From Candidatus Zixiibacteriota bacterium (lineage in GTDB: Bacteria; Zixibacteria; MSB-5A5; CAIYYT01): a stretch of DNA of 52,181 nucleotides. The position numbers and the translations under genes are program-made. Positions 244 to 9,935 of this stretch are shown piece by piece. Under the pieces are notes generated by a model, which did not search any database, was not told the origin of the DNA, and was given only the letters and a program-made list of their open reading frames with translations. The DNA is taken from positions 1-52,181 of the forward strand of contig JADYYF010000108.1 in NCBI GenBank assembly GCA_020853795.1. Reading direction: 5' to 3'. Position 1 is the first letter of the stretch, and each line of letters begins with the position of its first letter.

Positions 244-278
244 GAATATCTAATCAATTGTTGTCGATTAACTTACGT

Positions 279-2885
279 ATGGAGCGTACCGTCCAGTCCT
301 CGCTGACTCCGGACACTCTGGCCGCTTTTCTGCGCGAGCTGTCTGCTGCTGCTCGCAAGCTCGGAATTTATCCGCCCGGCCATCCGGTGTCTGTCAAAGC
401 AGCCGAAAGACCCTTTCAACTCCTAAAAGACCTGATGGCGACCGAGCAGATGGTTGTCTTCGCCGTCGCCGAAGGGACTCTTCTCGGATGTGGAATCCCA
501 CTCGATGCCAAGCTGCTCAACGAAGGTCTCGGTAAGGTCATCGTTGAGTCGGGGCTGCATAGCATTTCGTTCGAGGCTGGGGTCACCCCCGAAGAATTCG
601 AGTTGTTCCTCTCCCAGATCAACATCAAGAAAGAACAGCGCGATCTGCCGAAGTTCTTCGATGAGCAAAAGGTTCGTCGCATCAAGGCGGGTAGACTTCA
701 GTACCAGGTCATTCGCGACGGTGAACGCGTCATCTCAGAAGATGATCTCGTTCTGACTGGCGGAGGTAGTGGCGGCGTTGGCGGTAGCGCCGAAACCGAC
801 ACGCCTCAGCTCGTGCAACAGATTGAGCGCACTATGACGGACGTCTTGCGCAAGCATCCCGAACTCCTCCTGCAAATATTGACGCGCAAGCTGGGTGGCG
901 GCGGACGCGGTCAGGGTGGTGGAACCGGCGATGGTATCGGTAGCGGTGATGTCCACGGCAGCGGCACTGGCTTCGCAACCGGCAGTGGCTCTGGCGGCAC
1001 CGGCGGGAGTGGAACTGGGCCGAGTGCGGGCGGCAGCGGAACGGGTGGCGGTGGCATCGGCGCCGGAAGCGGGGGCACCGGTAGCGGGGGTGGCGCCGGC
1101 AGTGGTGTCGGTCCGGGCAACAGCGGCGGTGGCGGCAATCGTGAAAGCGGTTTCGTTGAGTGGCGTGGACGCATCAGCGCCGGCGTCCAGGACGGTTTGC
1201 GGGCACTCGGGATCGGCCGTGGGATGGGTTCTGGCGGTGGCGGTGGAGTCGGCTCCGGCAGCGGCGTTCGCTTTACGCCCGAAGACTACAAGCGCTTGAA
1301 AGAGACTTTCAGCGAAGTCGATAATGAAGAACTCCTGGGTCTGCTCGTTGCTGCGCTGCGGATGTCGTTTGCCGAGAACGACAAGAAGTCCAGCCGGGCC
1401 GAGATCGGCAAAGCACTGACCGGCTTTCGCGATTTGCTGGCCGAGCGCGAGTCGCTCGAATTGCTGCCGCGCCTCAAAGCCGAAATCGAACAGCTCGACC
1501 TGGTCGACAACGACTACCTGCGTGAACTGCTCTCCACCGACGCCACGCCCAAGAAGATCGCGCATATTGAGATCGAGAACTTCAAGTCGGACTTCTTCCT
1601 GGGTGCGGTCGATCCGGCCAACGTTGAGGACGTCGTTGGCTGGCTGGAGACGATCAGCGATTTGCAGTATACCGAGGATTTCGTCAAAAAATTCTATGCC
1701 GGTCTCGATCGACAGGGCTATGAGTTGACCGAGACCCAGCATGAAGCCCTCCTGCGCTTCGCTTCGATCTGCGCGGAAAACAGCAGCGCGCCGGTGGCCG
1801 GGCTGCAATTGGCGGAAATCAAGGAGCGGCTGGCAGAGCCAACAGTCACCTTGAAAGAATTCCAGCTCTTCACTGACATCATCGAGAAGTACTACCAGAA
1901 CTATATTGACATCGACCTGTACGATGAAGCTGCATCGCTGCTGGATCTGGTGGTGCAGAAACTCGACTCGGAAGTGATCTATGAGGCCGGGGTCGCCGAA
2001 CTGGCGGCCAAGGTTCATCAGCGGATGACTTCGGCACAACTGGCGGAATCATTGGTCGCGCGACTCGCCAAGCACTTCGAACTGGTCGGTAAGCCGATGA
2101 TACCGCTCTTGGAGAAGTTCAATAGCCTCGAACCGATCCTGGTCTTCGCTGGCTACCTGAATCACCGCGATCGCGGCGTACGCATCACCCTCATCCGCAT
2201 CCTTTCCAGCTTTGGCGAAAAGACGATCAATGCCTTCAAACTGGTGCTGTCCGACCGCAGCCTCACCAATCGTCCGGCCAACAACCCGGAACTGCCGACT
2301 GAGAGCTGGTACAAGTTGCGCAACATCCTATTCGTCCTCGGCAACATTCCCCACCCCGATTCGGTCGGGATTGCGGCGCGCTTCTCGCAGGATTCCGACG
2401 AACGGGTCGTTATGGAATCGCTGATTGCCCTGGAAAAATTGGGCGGCACGGAAGGCGCGCGGGCGATCTCCCGTCTGCTGCAACACCCGATCCGGGAGAT
2501 CAGCCTCAAGGCGCTGCATGCGCTGGGACAGGTCGGCTCGGCCGCGGATTACCCCTATGCCGAAGACTACTTCCTCAAAAACGTGACCGACCGCACCGCC
2601 ATCCTGCCGGTCCTGATCAAGCTCGACAAGCAGCGCAGCCTGACCTTCCTGGCCCAGATTCTGCTCGGCGAATCCCAGGCCTATCACAAATTGTTCTCCA
2701 AACCCGACGAAGATTTGAACGAGTTGATCGTCAAGACGTTTATTATGTTGAGATCGGTCATCTTTGACGACATTCTGCGCAAATACGTCAAGCAGAGCAC
2801 GCGTTCTCTCTTTGGGCAGCTCCGCAAAATGGAGTCGGTGAAGCTCGCCGAACGCTATCTGAAGACCGTCGCTACGACCGAATAA
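279..2885 (+). CDS. HEAT-repeat protein with long glycine-rich insert
   Basis: The protein has 868 residues from ATG 279; TTG codons at 258 and 261 are alternative starts, and neither has a Shine-Dalgarno. The first ~150 residues form an alpha/beta domain beginning with the YPPGHP motif, recurrent in HEAT and HD proteins of environmental bacteria (recalled, unnamed). Residues ~205-287 are almost pure Gly/Ser/Thr, with a second Gly-rich patch near residues 315-330. The C-terminal half is helical and contains HEAT-like repeats, for example around LNHRDRGVRITLIRILSSFG and the following segments. There is no signal peptide, so it is probably a cytoplasmic scaffold. The next gene starts 3 bases after its stop, so the two are probably co-transcribed. 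The function is unknown. Confidence 0.85.
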   Translation: MERTVQSSLTPDTLAAFLRELSAAARKLGIYPPGHPVSVKAAERPFQLLKDLMATEQMVVFAVAEGTLLGCGIPLDAKLLNEGLGKVIVESGLHSISFEAGVTPEEFELFLSQINIKKEQRDLPKFFDEQKVRRIKAGRLQYQVIRDGERVISEDDLVLTGGGSGGVGGSAETDTPQLVQQIERTMTDVLRKHPELLLQILTRKLGGGGRGQGGGTGDGIGSGDVHGSGTGFATGSGSGGTGGSGTGPSAGGSGTGGGGIGAGSGGTGSGGGAGSGVGPGNSGGGGNRESGFVEWRGRISAGVQDGLRALGIGRGMGSGGGGGVGSGSGVRFTPEDYKRLKETFSEVDNEELLGLLVAALRMSFAENDKKSSRAEIGKALTGFRDLLAERESLELLPRLKAEIEQLDLVDNDYLRELLSTDATPKKIAHIEIENFKSDFFLGAVDPANVEDVVGWLETISDLQYTEDFVKKFYAGLDRQGYELTETQHEALLRFASICAENSSAPVAGLQLAEIKERLAEPTVTLKEFQLFTDIIEKYYQNYIDIDLYDEAASLLDLVVQKLDSEVIYEAGVAELAAKVHQRMTSAQLAESLVARLAKHFELVGKPMIPLLEKFNSLEPILVFAGYLNHRDRGVRITLIRILSSFGEKTINAFKLVLSDRSLTNRPANNPELPTESWYKLRNILFVLGNIPHPDSVGIAARFSQDSDERVVMESLIALEKLGGTEGARAISRLLQHPIREISLKALHALGQVGSAADYPYAEDYFLKNVTDRTAILPVLIKLDKQRSLTFLAQILLGESQAYHKLFSKPDEDLNELIVKTFIMLRSVIFDDILRKYVKQSTRSLFGQLRKMESVKLAERYLKTVATTE

Positions 2886-2888
2886 CGG

Positions 2889-5645
2889 ATGCTCAAACCA
2901 CGATTCGTGCTTCTCATCGCCGCGCTGTTGGTCAGTCTCAGCGGCGCGCAGGCGCAATTCTACTTCGGGAAAAACAAGGTACAATACCAGCCGTTCGCGT
3001 GGAAGGTGCTGCAGACCGACCACTTCCGCATCTATTTCTACGACCAGGAAAGCGGTCTGGCGGAAATCGCGGCGGCCGCCGCCGAAGGCTCCTACGACCA
3101 CCTCGCCGACAAGTTCAATTTCCACATCTTTCGCAAAATCCCGTTAATCATCTATAGCGCGCCCACGTTCTTCACCCAGACCAATGTGACGCCGACCCTG
3201 CTGCCGGAAAGCGTAGCCGGCTTCACGGAATTCTTCAAGGGTCGGATGGTCGTGCCGTTCTCCGGCTCGATCGCTGACTTCCAGCGTGTGGTGCGGCACG
3301 AGCTGGTCCACGTCTTCACTTTTGACAAAATTCAGTCGGTCATGTCGCAATACCGCAAGATGAGTTACTACGGGCCGCCGCTCTGGTTCACCGAAGGCTT
3401 GGCCGAGTTTTGGTCGCGCGAGTGGGATTCGGAGGCCGACATGGTGTTGGCCGATATGGCGCTCGAGGGCACGCTCCGGCCGATTCACGAACTCGAGTAC
3501 CTCTCCGGTTCGTTCTTCATGTACAAGTACGGCGAATCGTTCTGCCACTACGTCGCCGAAACTTACGGCGAAGACAAATTGCAAATGATCTTCGAGAACT
3601 GGTGGAAGGCCGGCACCTTCCGCCAGCTCTTCAAGCTGACCGTAGGGAAGTCGCTCGAAGACGTCGGCAGCGAGTGGGTCTACCATCTCAAGAAACGTTA
3701 TTTTCCCGACCTGAAGACGGCTGACCTGCCCGCCAAGACGACTAGCTCTGTCACCGAGAAACAGTTTGCGGTCAAGCCCGTGCCGCTCAATATCGAGTAT
3801 CGCGGGGCCGACGATTGGGTCGCCTACAAAGCCAACAAGCTCGGCTATTCCGGGATTTATATGCGTTCGCCGTCGCGCGGCGAAGAAATCACGCTGGTCA
3901 AGGGTGAACGCTCACCCGGTTTCGAGTCGCTGCACTTGCTCCAGTCGCGCATCTCGGCTTCCCGCGATGGTCGCATTGCGTTCGTTTCCAAACGCTACGA
4001 GCGCGACGTGCTCTACATCTATGATGTCTTCTCGCAGGGGATCGTCCAGACCTTTGAGTTTCCGCGGCTCTACCAGTTGGTCTCGCCCTCCTGGTCCGAG
4101 GACAACCGGCGCTTGGTCTTTGCCGGCGCTACGTATGGCGGGTTTCACGATCTTTACATACTCAATCTGCAAGACTCGTCGCTGACGCGCTTGACGAACG
4201 ACATCTACTTTGACACCGAGCCGATCTTTGCCGGCAATGACGTGATTTTCGCGTCCGACCGTGGCAATTATGGCTATGAAGGCTATACCAACCTTTTCCG
4301 CTTTAGCGCCGGCGACTCGGTGATTACGCCGCTAACCTATGGCCGCTTCAACGATCGCTCCCCCAGCCTGACGGCCGACGGTGTTCTCTTTTCTTCCGAT
4401 CGCGGCGGATTCGCCAACATCTACCTGCTCGACGGCGCTGGCCAGCTCCGCCAAGTGACCTCGTTTGCGACCGGCGCCTTCGACCCGGTCCTGGCCGGTG
4501 ATCGCCTGATGTTCTCCGGCTACCAGAATTTCAGCTTCAGCATCTATGCGGCGCCATTCGACACCACCGGGCTGCCGACGATGCCGCTCCCGGAAGCACA
4601 GTATTCGGCCTGGAATCCCGACCGACTGGGGGGCGAAGAATCGACCGGTGTTCTCGACTACGCCAATGAGTTCTCGTTCGACGTCGCACAATCAGCCATC
4701 GCCTACGATGCCGTCTACGGTACCATCGGCGGCTTTCAGGCAGTCTTCTCCGACATGCTGGGCGATAAGCTATACTATATCCTGCTTTCGAACACCGCCG
4801 ACACCAAGAACGACCTGCTCAAATCGTTCAACTTCGGCGTCACCTACATCAACAAGACGCATCGCATCAACTACGGAGTCGGCGCCTACCATCTCTTCGA
4901 CGAGCACTACGACGACTACGAGGGCTACTATGACGAGCGCCAAAGCGGCGTGCAAGGGTTGGTGTCGTATCCGCTTTCCAAGTTTTCGCGCGTTGAGACC
5001 TCGGCTTTCCTGCGTCACTCTTTCAAAGAGAAGCCGCTCTTTCGTGAGTCGCGCCACGCGATCCTGATGACCAATTATGCCTCGGTGGTTCACGACAATT
5101 CTCTCTGGGATATCTCCGGACCGATCGACGGCATCCGCGCCAATGCCACCGTCGGCCTGACGACCGACTTCTATTCCGGCAAATTCTTTAATCGACTGAT
5201 GTTCGTCGACCTGCGCAATTATCTGCGGATTCGCAAATACTCGGCATTCGCCACGCGCGCCTTCGGCTTCTGGTCCGCCGGCGACGAACCGCAGCGGATC
5301 TATCTCGGCGGCAGTTGGTCGTTGCGCGGCTACGAGCGCCGGGAATTTTACGCCCGCAAAGTCCTGCTGCTGTCGAACGAGTTGCGCTTTCCGTTGATCG
5401 ACAATTTGTTCATCGGTTTTCCGTTTGGTCGCATGGGCTTTCAGGCTATTCGCGGCGCGCTTTTTGCCGACGTCGGCACCGGTTGGAACGATGAATTCGA
5501 ACGCTTCTACGGGTCCTTCGGCGCCGGCGCGCGTGTGGCGCTCGGCTATATGGCCGTCCTGCGTTTCGACCTCTCCAAGAAGACCAACTTCGACACTTTC
5601 GAGCCCGGCCTAAAATTCGATTTCTTCTTCGGATGGAACTTCTGA
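2889..5645 (+). CDS. Peptidase MA-like / TolB-like propeller / Omp85-like barrel fusion, outer membrane
   Basis: The protein has 918 residues. A signal peptide (residues 1-22, ending GAQA) is followed by a gluzincin metallopeptidase domain with zinc motif HELVH at 137-141 and the third-ligand glutamate in WFTEGLAEFW (E169). Residues ~300-560 contain repeated PD40/TolB-type blades such as FASDRGNYGYEGYTNLF and FSSDRGGFANIYLLDG. The last ~320 residues are beta-rich and carry the surface-antigen (D15/Omp85) signature GGSWSLRGYERREF near 807-820, ending in an aromatic residue (final F). No POTRA domain is seen. I infer an outer-membrane protein with a periplasmic or surface protease and propeller. 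It sits between a HEAT protein and a BamB-like lipoprotein, which suggests envelope biogenesis. The domain calls are firm; the role is not. Confidence 0.88.
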   Translation: MLKPRFVLLIAALLVSLSGAQAQFYFGKNKVQYQPFAWKVLQTDHFRIYFYDQESGLAEIAAAAAEGSYDHLADKFNFHIFRKIPLIIYSAPTFFTQTNVTPTLLPESVAGFTEFFKGRMVVPFSGSIADFQRVVRHELVHVFTFDKIQSVMSQYRKMSYYGPPLWFTEGLAEFWSREWDSEADMVLADMALEGTLRPIHELEYLSGSFFMYKYGESFCHYVAETYGEDKLQMIFENWWKAGTFRQLFKLTVGKSLEDVGSEWVYHLKKRYFPDLKTADLPAKTTSSVTEKQFAVKPVPLNIEYRGADDWVAYKANKLGYSGIYMRSPSRGEEITLVKGERSPGFESLHLLQSRISASRDGRIAFVSKRYERDVLYIYDVFSQGIVQTFEFPRLYQLVSPSWSEDNRRLVFAGATYGGFHDLYILNLQDSSLTRLTNDIYFDTEPIFAGNDVIFASDRGNYGYEGYTNLFRFSAGDSVITPLTYGRFNDRSPSLTADGVLFSSDRGGFANIYLLDGAGQLRQVTSFATGAFDPVLAGDRLMFSGYQNFSFSIYAAPFDTTGLPTMPLPEAQYSAWNPDRLGGEESTGVLDYANEFSFDVAQSAIAYDAVYGTIGGFQAVFSDMLGDKLYYILLSNTADTKNDLLKSFNFGVTYINKTHRINYGVGAYHLFDEHYDDYEGYYDERQSGVQGLVSYPLSKFSRVETSAFLRHSFKEKPLFRESRHAILMTNYASVVHDNSLWDISGPIDGIRANATVGLTTDFYSGKFFNRLMFVDLRNYLRIRKYSAFATRAFGFWSAGDEPQRIYLGGSWSLRGYERREFYARKVLLLSNELRFPLIDNLFIGFPFGRMGFQAIRGALFADVGTGWNDEFERFYGSFGAGARVALGYMAVLRFDLSKKTNFDTFEPGLKFDFFFGWNF

Positions 5646-5655
5646 TCTTGGCGGC

Positions 5656-6084
5656 ATGATCAACGGCAATTACATCGTCGTCGGATTTCTCATCCTGCTG
5701 GTCGCGATTGGCATTGCCGTCGCGATCTACAATCCGCAACCGCCGTCGCCAGTCGATGTGGCGATGGTTAAATTGACGGAATTGCATGACTCGGCCGGCT
5801 CAGTGTCGCGCGATTTTCTCCAGCAGTTGCCGCGCCCCCGCCTGGACGAATACATCGACATGCTGAATTATCAGATTCGCCTGCGCGACTCGTTGGCGGT
5901 GGCCACCGACACGGTGTCGCTCGCACGGCGCCGCTTCGCCGCCCAGGCGCGCGCGTCGCATCTCCTCGGCTACACCGACGCGCTGATGCTCGATACGCTC
6001 TATGTCGCGGCGCATGATCCGGCAACCTCCAGCGCAGAATGGAACGACCTCTGTGCGCGCTATCGTGAGCAGGTTGCGCAGTAG
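5656..6084 (+). CDS. Small single-pass membrane protein, unknown
   Basis: The 142-residue protein has an N-terminal membrane anchor (residues ~7-26, YIVVGFLILLVAIGIAVAIY) and a Pro-rich neck, then a mostly helical soluble part rich in Arg, Asp and Leu. I do not recognise the family. It starts 10 bases after the barrel-fusion gene and ends one base before the BamB-like lipoprotein gene, so it is almost certainly part of the same operon and may be an inner-membrane partner of that envelope system. The open frame, codon use like its neighbours and tight spacing support it as real. Confidence 0.75.
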   Translation: MINGNYIVVGFLILLVAIGIAVAIYNPQPPSPVDVAMVKLTELHDSAGSVSRDFLQQLPRPRLDEYIDMLNYQIRLRDSLAVATDTVSLARRRFAAQARASHLLGYTDALMLDTLYVAAHDPATSSAEWNDLCARYREQVAQ

Positions 6085-6085
6085 C

Positions 6086-7201
6086 ATGTACCGCCGGCTG
6101 CTGCTCTTCGTCTGCGCACTGGCCGTCATCGCCGGCTGTGCGCCCCGCTTCAGTACCTTCAAGAACACCGCCCCGGCCACCGGATTCGTCCAGCACCGCG
6201 TCAACGCCAGCGGCAATGCCGTCCTGGAATCTGGCGCCGTGGCCATCGACACAATTCTGTTCGAGCGCAAACTTAACGGCGGCATGGCCGCACAAGTGGT
6301 CGGCAATCAACAATTTCTCGTCGTGCCGACTTTCAATAAGCGCATCTACTTCTTGAATCCGTCCACCGGCCGCGAGATCACCTCGCTTGAAACCGAATCA
6401 GCCGTCGGCTCGGCAGCGGCCGTGCAGCATGAACTGATCTATTTTGCCGAGGAATCGGGTTCCGATCAGGTCACCTGCTTCAATCTGGTCAACGGCAAGA
6501 AAGTCTGGTCGCTCAAAGTCGTCGATCCGCCCGGACCACCGATCATCAGCGGAGACGAGTTGTTTATCACCTCCCGAATCGGCAAAGTCATCTGCGCCAA
6601 TCGCTGGACCGGGGTGGTTCAATGGGAGCAGGACTTGCACTGCCACTTCTATGCACCGGTCGCGGCCGACAGTGCGCGAGTTTACGTCGGCACCGACCGC
6701 GGCGACATTGTCGCTGTGAGCCGATCCGACGGCAATGAACTGTGGCGTTTCGCCGCCGGCAGCACCGTCTTCGCCCAGCCGCTGGCCGACCAGCTAATCT
6801 ACGTCGGCACCGGCGCGGGCACCCTGTGGGCTCTCGATCCGGCCAGCGGCAGCGAAATCTGGCGCTATGACTGCGTTTCGTCAATTCACACAACTCCCGT
6901 GCTTCGAGAGAACCGCCTGATCTTCGGCGCCGATGATCGCGTAGCTTACTGCCTCAACGCGCAGGACGGGGAGCTTCTCTGGCGCTACGAAACCACCGGC
7001 ATCATCCAGTCCTCGCCGATCATTGCCGGAGAGATGGTCATCCTGGCCAACAGCGCCGGATCGATCTATCAGTTCAATCTGGATGGTCAACTACTCTCTC
7101 AACTCTCCGTTAAGGGCACGATTCAAGCTCCAGCGGCCGTTATCGATGGCAAGGTCTACGTCGTGACCACGCAGCGACGGCTCTATTGCCTCGGCCGCTG
7201 A
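6086..7201 (+). CDS. BamB-like PQQ-propeller outer-membrane lipoprotein
   Basis: I chose ATG 6086 (371 residues), not the longer frame from 6002, because it gives a clear lipoprotein signal, MYRRLLLFVCALAVIAGC, with lipobox VIAGC and Cys18. The mature part consists of repeated PQQ-type beta-propeller blades with the recurring pattern G-x-L-W-x-L/Y, for example GTLWALDPASGSEIWRYD and AQDGELLWRYETTG. BamB of the beta-barrel assembly machine has this architecture and about this length. Its neighbour two genes upstream carries an Omp85-like barrel, so a role in outer-membrane insertion or quality control is plausible, but other PQQ-repeat lipoproteins exist. It is the last gene of the 279-7201 cluster. 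Confidence 0.85.
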   Translation: MYRRLLLFVCALAVIAGCAPRFSTFKNTAPATGFVQHRVNASGNAVLESGAVAIDTILFERKLNGGMAAQVVGNQQFLVVPTFNKRIYFLNPSTGREITSLETESAVGSAAAVQHELIYFAEESGSDQVTCFNLVNGKKVWSLKVVDPPGPPIISGDELFITSRIGKVICANRWTGVVQWEQDLHCHFYAPVAADSARVYVGTDRGDIVAVSRSDGNELWRFAAGSTVFAQPLADQLIYVGTGAGTLWALDPASGSEIWRYDCVSSIHTTPVLRENRLIFGADDRVAYCLNAQDGELLWRYETTGIIQSSPIIAGEMVILANSAGSIYQFNLDGQLLSQLSVKGTIQAPAAVIDGKVYVVTTQRRLYCLGR

Positions 7202-7454: not shown

Positions 7455-7904
7455 ATGTATCTCACAATCACCAAGCCGCAGAATCGCTTCGGTCTCCTGA
7501 GCACTGAGATGGACCGCATGCTGGGCGAGATCTTCAACGGATTCAACGGCAACACTATGCTTGATGCCGACTCTAACTGGACTCCCCGGGCGGATGTCCA
7601 TGAAACCCCGGAAAACTTTATCGTACACCTCGATGTTCCCGGAGTCGACAAGAACGACATCAAGGTGAAGTTCGAGGACAACACGCTGACTGTGACCGGT
7701 GAGCGCAAGTACGAGTCGCGGAACGAAGAGAAGGACTTCCGCCATGTCGAGCGCACCTATGGCACCTTCACGCGCAGCCTGCGCCTGGCCAAGGACGTTG
7801 ATGCGCAGAAGATCCAGGCCGCCTACAAGAACGGTGTGCTTGAGATCACGCTGCCGAAGGCCGAGGAAGTCAAGCCGAAGGAAATCGAAGTCAAGATCGG
7901 CTAA
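7455..7904 (+). CDS. hsp20: Small heat shock protein, Hsp20/alpha-crystallin family
   Basis: The 149-residue ATP-independent holdase chaperone has a short N-terminal arm followed by the alpha-crystallin domain (about residues 42-138): WTPRADVHETPENFIVHLDVPG, then the conserved NGVLEITLPK near its end. The tail contains IEVKI, an I-x-V/I anchoring motif used for oligomer assembly in this family. The Shine-Dalgarno GAGGAGG lies 8 bases before ATG. It is preceded by a sigma-54-type promoter and followed by a hairpin terminator that separates it from dnaK, so it is probably the most strongly induced product of the heat-shock unit. Confidence 0.97.
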   Translation: MYLTITKPQNRFGLLSTEMDRMLGEIFNGFNGNTMLDADSNWTPRADVHETPENFIVHLDVPGVDKNDIKVKFEDNTLTVTGERKYESRNEEKDFRHVERTYGTFTRSLRLAKDVDAQKIQAAYKNGVLEITLPKAEEVKPKEIEVKIG

Positions 7905-8024: not shown

Positions 8025-9935
8025 ATGACAGATAAAATCATTGGTATCGACCTCGGTACGACCAACTCGTGCTTGTCCGTAATGGAAGGCAACGAGCCGG
8101 TTGTCATCCCTAATGCCGAGGGCGGCCGCACCACGCCATCAGTGGTCGGTCTTAAGGCCGGCGAACGCCTGGTCGGCCAGATTGCCAAACGGCAGGCGAT
8201 CACCAACCCGCTTAACACCGTGTTCTCGGTGAAGCGGTTTATGGGACGGCAATACGACGAAGTTACCGAGGAAATCAAGAATTTCCCGTACAAAGTCAAA
8301 CGTGCCGCCAACGGCTTGGCCGCGATTGAGATCGAAGGTCGGGACTACACGCCGCAGGAAATCTCGGCGATGATCCTCGGTAAACTCAAGCAAGCCGCCG
8401 AGGACTATCTCGGCCAAAAGGTGACCAAGGCCGTCATCACGGTGCCGGCGTACTTCAACGACGCCCAACGCCAGGCCACCAAGGACGCCGGCAAGATCGC
8501 CGGGCTCGAAGTGATGCGCATCATCAACGAGCCGACCGCCGCGGCGCTGGCCTATGGTCTCGACAAGAAAAAGGCGCAGAAGATCGCCGTGTTCGACCTT
8601 GGCGGCGGCACCTTCGACATCTCGATCCTCGAACTCGGGGACGGGGTGTTTGAAGTGCTCTCCACCAACGGCGACACCCACCTCGGCGGCGATGACTTCG
8701 ACAAGCGCATCATCGACTGGATGGTCGCGGAATTCAAAAAGTCTGACGGCATTGATCTGTCGAAAGACCCGATGGCACTCCAGCGCCTGAAGGAAGCTGC
8801 CGAAAAGGCCAAGATCGAACTGTCGACGGTGAAGGAGACAACGATCAATCTACCGTTTGTCACGGCGGATGCCTCCGGCCCGCGCCATCTGAACCTGTCG
8901 CTGACGCGCGCCAAGTTCGAAGGCATGGTCGAGGACTTGGTCGCGCGCTGCATGAATCCGGTCAAGAAGGCCATGGCCGACGCCAAGGTGTCGAGTACCG
9001 AAATCGGTGAAGTCGTCCTGGTCGGCGGTATGACCCGCATGCCGAAAGTGGTGGAGGAAGTGGAACGCTTCTTCGGCCGCGAAGCACACAAGGGCGTGAA
9101 TCCGGACGAGGTTGTCGCCATCGGCGCTGCAATTCAGGGCGGCGTCCTGGCCGGCGACGTCAAGGACGTGCTGTTGCTCGATGTGACTCCGCTGTCGCTC
9201 GGACTCGAAACGCTCGGCGGCGTCTTTACCAAGTTGATCGAACGCAACACGACCATCCCAACCAAGAAGGCACAGGTCTTCTCAACCGCTGCGGACTCGC
9301 AGACGTCGGTCGAGATTCACGTGCTGCAGGGCGAACGCGAAATGGCGCTCGACAATCGCACCATCGGCCGCTTCATTCTCGACGGCATCCCGGCCGCGCC
9401 GCGCGGCGTGCCGCAGATCGATGTCACCTTCGACATCGATGCCAACGGCATTCTCAATGTCTCGGCGCGCGATCTCGGCACCGGCAAGGTGCAGAACATT
9501 CGCATCGAGTCCTCTTCCGGGCTCTCCAAACCGGAAATCGAGAAAATGGTGCGCGATGCTGAAGCGAACGTCGAGGCCGACCGCAAGCGCAAGGCCGACG
9601 TTGAGACGAAGAACAACGCCGACCAGATGGCGTTCCAGTGCGAGAAGTTCGTCAAGGAGAGCGGCGATAAAATCGACGCTTCCGCCAAAGCGGACCTCGA
9701 ACGCCAGATCGAGAAGCTGAAAGAGCTGGTCATGGGTTCTGACTTCGCCGCGATGAAGGCCGAGACCGAGCGCCTGCAAACGATCATGCAGAACGCCGCG
9801 TCACAGCTCTACCAGCAGGCGGCGCAGCAGCGCACGCAGTCAGCCCCGCCGCAGGGCGAGCCGGCTTCCGGCTCGACCCAGCAGTCGCAAGCGGGCGGGG
9901 AAGCGGTCGACGCCGACTACGAAGTCGTGAAATAA
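8025..9935 (+). CDS. dnaK: Molecular chaperone DnaK (Hsp70)
   Basis: The product has 636 residues from ATG 8025, preceded by AAAGGAG; the longer frame from 7980 would begin inside the terminator region and is rejected. The N-terminal ATPase domain shows all Hsp70 signatures: [11 protein letters not shown] at 6-16, [20 protein letters not shown], the phosphate-2 loop [13 protein letters not shown] and [12 protein letters not shown]. The substrate-binding domain begins after the linker [13 protein letters not shown], and a helical lid ends in a Gln-rich tail with C-terminal VDADYEVVK, close to the EEVD-like end of bacterial DnaK. No dnaJ or grpE lies next to it. It is probably expressed by read-through from hsp20 and ends at the hairpin at 9961. 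Confidence 0.99.

Follow-up and report, generated by a model that had tools for sequence, protein, structure and literature searches.

One protein encoded by a Candidatus Zixiibacteriota genome joins, as judged from profile searches and structure prediction, a gluzincin-type peptidase, a propeller like that of TolB and an outer-membrane barrel of the BamA type (Table 1), and it belongs to an old family that is nearly universal in Zixibacteria and is not a peculiar local fusion. The window, that is, the whole stretch of DNA analysed (52,181 nucleotides), is an entire contig (G000:C108) of a draft genome that is 99.9% complete. The gene is one frame without interruption, and the same interval read as its reverse complement contains stops; residues 1–22 of the product are read as a Sec signal peptide. 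Most Zixibacteria genomes have two paralogues, A (about 920–980 amino acids, represented by the gene in the window) and B (about 1,020–1,140 amino acids). An earlier note on this DNA had claimed that the three parts lie in a single chain without POTRA domains, with the zinc site at HELVH and E169, PD40 blades and the D15-type signature GGSWSLRGY, and the analysis upholds each of these points. The predicted structure contains the C-terminal barrel and a putative zinc site, either of whose absence the note had named as grounds for abandoning the idea. A Pfam search gave no POTRA match, and the peptidase and propeller stand at that place. The gene has no match in PHROGs, which does not support a phage origin; no solved structure of a whole A-type protein was found, and only the TolB and BamA pieces were matched.

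Table 1 Features of the A-type gene and its surroundings in the window
Feature	Position (nt)	Strand	Length or residues	Basis and remarks
HEAT-repeat protein	258..2885	+	875 aa	Pfam HEAT_2, E = 9e-11; no signal peptide seen
A-type peptidase-propeller-Omp85 protein	2889..5645	+	918 aa	ORF, profile searches, AlphaFold2, Foldseek
Predicted Sec signal peptide	2889..2954	+	1–22	MLKPRFVLLIAALLVSLSGAQA; from sequence, position kept in relatives
Gluzincin-type peptidase domain	2955..3743	+	23–285	Peptidase_MA_2, AlphaFold2, Foldseek to collagenase and M1
HELVH zinc/catalytic motif	3297..3311	+	137–141	H137, E138 and H141 invariant (31/31)
Third zinc ligand E169 (PPLWFTEGLAE)	3393..3395	+	169	Invariant (31/31)
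TolB-like six-blade-type beta-propeller	3756..4568	+	~290–560	PD40, TolB profile, Foldseek TolB, profile match to solved TolB
Omp85-type beta-barrel	4674..5642	+	~596–918	C-terminal ...FFFGWNF; model strands, BamA/TamA Foldseek, PF01103
GGSWSLRGY loop-6-like motif	5307..5333	+	807–815	
142-aa protein, N-terminal membrane segment	5656..6084	+	142 aa	Only in close relatives
BamB-like PQQ-type propeller lipoprotein	6086..7201	+		Lipobox AVIAGC, MYRRLLLFVCALAVIAGC; PQQ_2/BamB, E = 2e-43 (Pfam)
Hsp20 small heat-shock protein	7455..7904	+		
DnaK	8025..9935	+		

Conservation among 31 full-length Zixibacteria A-type proteins is highest around the peptidase site and in the barrel at the C terminus, with H137, E138, H141, W166 and E169 at 100%. 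The four zinc and catalytic residues are thus identical in all of them, and the zinc residues are also invariant in the 27 Bacteroidota A proteins, which rules out a chance HExxH. Peptidase_MA_2 (PF13485) matches the main protein at E = 2e-5 and 25.0 bits, under the Pfam gathering cut-off of 32.4, whereas paralogue B of the same genome exceeds that cut-off (37.3 bits); the best value among relatives is E = 2.8e-14. AlphaFold2 predicts an alpha/beta peptidase domain at about residues 38–285, with HELVH in one helix (128–154) and E169 in the next (165–176), the arrangement of HExxH and downstream glutamate that characterizes gluzincins (clan MA(E)). Modelled alone (pLDDT 75, pTM 0.75), the domain matches, in Foldseek, the peptidase domains of clostridial collagenases (M9) and the M1 aminopeptidases (E = 1e-4 to 1e-3, TM about 0.5) and is thus assigned to the gluzincin fold. 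The assignment rests on this fold comparison, the sequence-level link to collagenases being weak (E = 0.07), as is the score with which the E169 region aligns with the WWSEGIAEY motif of Vibrio collagenase. The spacing from H141 to E169, 28 residues, is the same as in collagenases. The conserved zinc site suggests peptidase activity in A.

The propeller is recognized by PD40 (E = 5e-8, Pfam), by profile comparison with solved TolB (E = 1.5e-26) and by the NCBIfam TolB profile (E = 1e-18), whose 67.6 bits compare with an equivalog cut-off of 343 and which aligns only at propeller positions. The A-type propeller therefore resembles that of TolB of the Tol-Pal system; the N-terminal domain of TolB is not matched. 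AlphaFold2 predicts about 23 propeller strands (residues 293–556), followed by a barrel of 15–16 strands that runs to residue 916 and whose first strands are of low confidence. The model was made from an alignment of 10 sequences (mean pLDDT 70.4, pTM 0.54), and confidence is low at residues 581–640 and over the last 100 residues (pLDDT about 34–58). Searched against the PDB with Foldseek, the whole model finds tricorn protease and TolB for the propeller and many BamA and TamA structures for the barrel. PF01103 (Omp85) scores 28.5 bits against a cut-off of 24 in the genome search, assigning the barrel to the Omp85 superfamily, and is absent from the plain hmmscan output for the main protein; 5 of the 10 alignment members match it (best E = 7e-8). 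The NCBIfam Omp85 family matches at 9e-10, under its subfamily cut-off. The LRGY of loop 6 is present, and GGSW..RG is kept at 95% or more in A-type proteins.

We surveyed two phyla, Zixibacteria (FCB group) and Bacteroidota, using MAG-based data. The family occurs in 118 of 119 sampled Zixibacteria genomes and in all 79 of the good ones, with A typically in one copy per genome. Paralogue B of the present genome (G000:C187:2701-5757; P0003; L002, L065) has 1,038 amino acids, the motifs HELTH and GEGYAEY and the same architecture. The Bacteroidota sample was defined through locus L015, which is titled Draconibacterium: of 118 genomes from its phylum, 87 match at E = 1e-15 or better, although the weakest matches may be to the propeller only. 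The search in related genomes proposed by the earlier note thus recovered the architecture, with a conserved BamB-like neighbour, in both phyla, and the identical architecture in many assemblies rules out a local or misassembled fusion. A search of a plasmid collection gave one match, a 633-amino-acid relative on Salinibacter ruber plasmid pSR116 (L196:4917-6818), which has the peptidase (HELVH) and propeller, lacks the barrel and is named 'basic secretory protein-like protein' by NCBI.

In a quick, midpoint-rooted tree built from propeller and barrel columns with the peptidase columns excluded, and with some rows of unusual composition, Zixibacteria A (support 99) is placed next to short Bacteroidota copies, the two together having support 100; Zixibacteria B forms another group (99), besides which there are the long Bacteroidota copies and a third, small group. 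Every Zixibacteria A (31/31), Bacteroidota A (27/27) and Zixibacteria B (20/20) sequence carries the zinc motif, as do 10 long Bacteroidota copies and 4 members of the third group. That group, found in Bacteroidota (L146, L150, L151 and L155), carries HE[LM]VH and differs in its barrel end. Eight Bacteroidota B-side sequences (L015, L144, L145, L147, L148, L149, L153 and L154) lack the motif; they form one clade (support 100), equivalent to one change on the tree, and are likely pseudoproteases. As the zinc site is gone from this clade while its propeller and barrel remain, proteolysis is not needed in every member of the family.

The gene neighbourhood is conserved in part. The earlier note had placed the gene between a HEAT protein and a BamB-like lipoprotein; both neighbours are there, but the second is not directly adjacent, as the 142-amino-acid frame, which starts 10 nt after the main gene and ends 1 nt before the BamB-like gene, intervenes. 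A relative of this small protein (39% match) occurs in L007 only. Between the HEAT gene and the main gene lie 3 nt, and a related gene lies beside or near A in about half of the Zixibacteria loci; about 150 residues of the HEAT protein of the window form a Gly/Ser-rich linker, and at two loci (L046 and L062) HEAT genes flank the barrel/BamB-like pair on both sides. The start of the BamB-like gene is probably at 6086 rather than at 6002. Its product matches the BamB profile TIGR03300 at E = 1.5e-45 with 155.5 bits, under the equivalog cut-off of 285.2, and is best described as BamB-like, not as a proven BamB orthologue.

A BamB-like gene lies downstream of A on the same strand at 39 of 41 loci (21 Zixibacteria and 20 Bacteroidota), counts that are not independent events since the sampling is partly nested, with several loci per family. 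Its reading frame overlaps the A stop codon in many of the 39, and 28 of the 39 pass a crude lipobox test; at two Zixibacteria loci, about 2.2 kb containing another conserved gene separates the two. B loci served as the control for chance propeller matches, and none of 40 has such a gene. Downstream of A, most Zixibacteria loci have Hsp20 and many have DnaK and ClpB; five have RelA/SpoT upstream. The chaperones are cytoplasmic and their genes lie about 250 nt from the BamB-like gene, so co-regulation with A is unproven. Zixibacteria B genes adjoin murA in 20 of 20 cases, a linkage shared neither by A nor by those Bacteroidota B loci that were examined.

We read the A-type protein as a periplasmic, gluzincin-type metallopeptidase that is anchored in the outer membrane and works with the BamB-like protein in quality control or maturation of outer-membrane proteins, and put the probability of this tentative reading at roughly 45%. 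The signal peptide speaks for an outer-membrane location, as do the Omp85 barrel and the aromatic residue at the C terminus; the barrel, with this aromatic beta-signal, would lie in that membrane. By analogy with BamA, for which this is established, an even-stranded Omp85 barrel would put the N-terminal domains in the periplasm, and the peptidase and propeller would then reach to where BamA has POTRA. That the partner is BamB-like speaks for a function close to the assembly of outer-membrane proteins. Both propellers could bind substrate or partner, and the peptidase may cut misassembled outer-membrane or exported proteins, or mature a specific one, at the membrane. Such a protein would act as a BamA-type barrel and a BepA-type protease joined together, beside the ordinary BAM complex and not in its place: the same genome encodes a canonical five-POTRA BamA, which rules out a replacement for BamA, and a second Omp85 protein with three POTRA. 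Given this BamA, and given that in both phyla the A gene goes together with that of a BamB-like lipoprotein, the 'autonomous' module that the earlier note had suggested is not supported, while its quality-control or maturation role at the outer membrane survives as our best guess. Weighing against that guess, the B-side clade that retains propeller and barrel without a zinc site indicates that the ancestral role may not have been proteolytic.

The same clade is what favours a non-proteolytic insertase or scaffold, in which propeller and Omp85 barrel would aid assembly and the peptidase domain would only bind unfolded chains: eight sequences in a well-supported group have lost HExxH and kept the remaining architecture. 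We regard this as rather unlikely, because binding alone would not require the zinc site that is invariant in all examined A-type and Zixibacteria B-type proteins. A dedicated maturation protease, whose cleavage would be confined to a single, defined exported client (such as a lipoprotein or surface protein that crosses the outer membrane) and which would take no part in general quality control, would suit the typically single A copy per genome and its pairing with one propeller lipoprotein. It is nevertheless unlikely, as no conserved client gene is adjacent, besides the BamB-like and sometimes the HEAT gene, and the chaperone neighbours suggest general proteostasis.

The barrel might instead move the peptidase and propeller to the surface or the medium, in the manner of the self-secreting enzyme PlpD (type Vd). 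PlpD-type Omp85 proteins do have their enzyme N-terminal to the barrel (PMC4104836), and the present genome encodes a patatin-POTRA-Omp85 protein of this kind (G000:C71:62669-63517; L095). That protein has POTRA, however, whereas the A-type protein has none; a BamB-like lipoprotein gene accompanies the A gene, and a large folded propeller beside the barrel would be an implausible passenger, all of which makes self-secretion quite improbable. Least probable by far is a Tol-Pal-like or cell-wall role, with the propeller tying the outer membrane to peptidoglycan. The match to TolB and the murA-linked B paralogue of Zixibacteria point that way, but the match is limited to the propeller, A is not near murA and the examined Bacteroidota B loci lack the linkage.

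Extending the preferred reading of an anchored metallopeptidase, we suggest, with less confidence, a second, protease-equipped machine for outer-membrane assembly or quality control, in which an Omp85 barrel carries its own collagenase-like metallopeptidase and has a BamB-like lipoprotein dedicated to it. It would be ancestral to Zixibacteria and some Bacteroidota and would recognize clients at its own barrel and there degrade or trim them, with a related paralogue turned pseudoprotease in one Bacteroidota clade. If so, no function has yet been described for an envelope machine that belongs to the core of an entire phylum and occurs in many Bacteroidota. It would be a case, amenable to testing, in which protein quality control is joined to an outer-membrane insertion fold, with a natural contrast between A, which keeps the zinc site, and the one B clade that lacks it.

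Compared with known systems, the A-type protein combines familiar parts. BamA and TamA have N-terminal POTRA domains, in place of which it carries the peptidase and propeller. The closest solved folds of its peptidase domain, those of clostridial and Vibrio collagenases (M9) and M1 aminopeptidases, share about 15% identity with it and belong to proteins without a barrel. PlpD, a patatin-Omp85 protein that carries POTRA, likewise unites an enzyme and an Omp85 barrel in one chain, but its enzyme is a secreted lipase and not a peptidase. Another enzyme domain found ahead of an Omp85 barrel is PF00149, the calcineurin-type phosphoesterase family. It is the basis of the 'Metallo' Omp85 subfamily, for which periplasmic quality control has been proposed (PMC4104836); both proteins place a metal-dependent enzyme domain before the barrel, but the text of that article mentions no propeller in 'Metallo' members, whereas the A-type protein has an HExxH peptidase and a propeller.

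The same article defines a WD40-Omp85 subfamily, whose members lack POTRA and have a TolB-like propeller ahead of the Omp85 barrel, and which Heinz and Lithgow (2014) likened to a BamA-BamB fusion (PMC4104836). The A-type protein shares this architecture, and the two groups are likely, although unproven, to be the same; the text of the article describes no gluzincin or HExxH peptidase with the propeller. A term search of two 2025 Bacteroidota BAM papers returned no WD40-Omp85 subunit. In the open-licence literature, where only PMC4104836 comes close, propeller-Omp85 fusions have thus been known since 2014, and we found no description of the gluzincin domain and hence of the three-domain combination, of the BamB coupling or of the A/B paralogue split. 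The Escherichia coli metalloproteases BepA, YcaL and LoiP are separate proteins linked to outer-membrane protein biogenesis that act on stalled barrel proteins at BAM (PMC13067283). As zinc metalloproteases near BAM they would resemble the A-type protein in its proposed role; unlike it, they are M48-family enzymes in chains of their own, without barrel or propeller. The A-type protein and its partner also parallel BamA and BamB of the BAM complex, an Omp85 barrel with a propeller lipoprotein at its side, except that BamA binds BamB through POTRA domains and the A-type protein, which has none, carries a peptidase domain.
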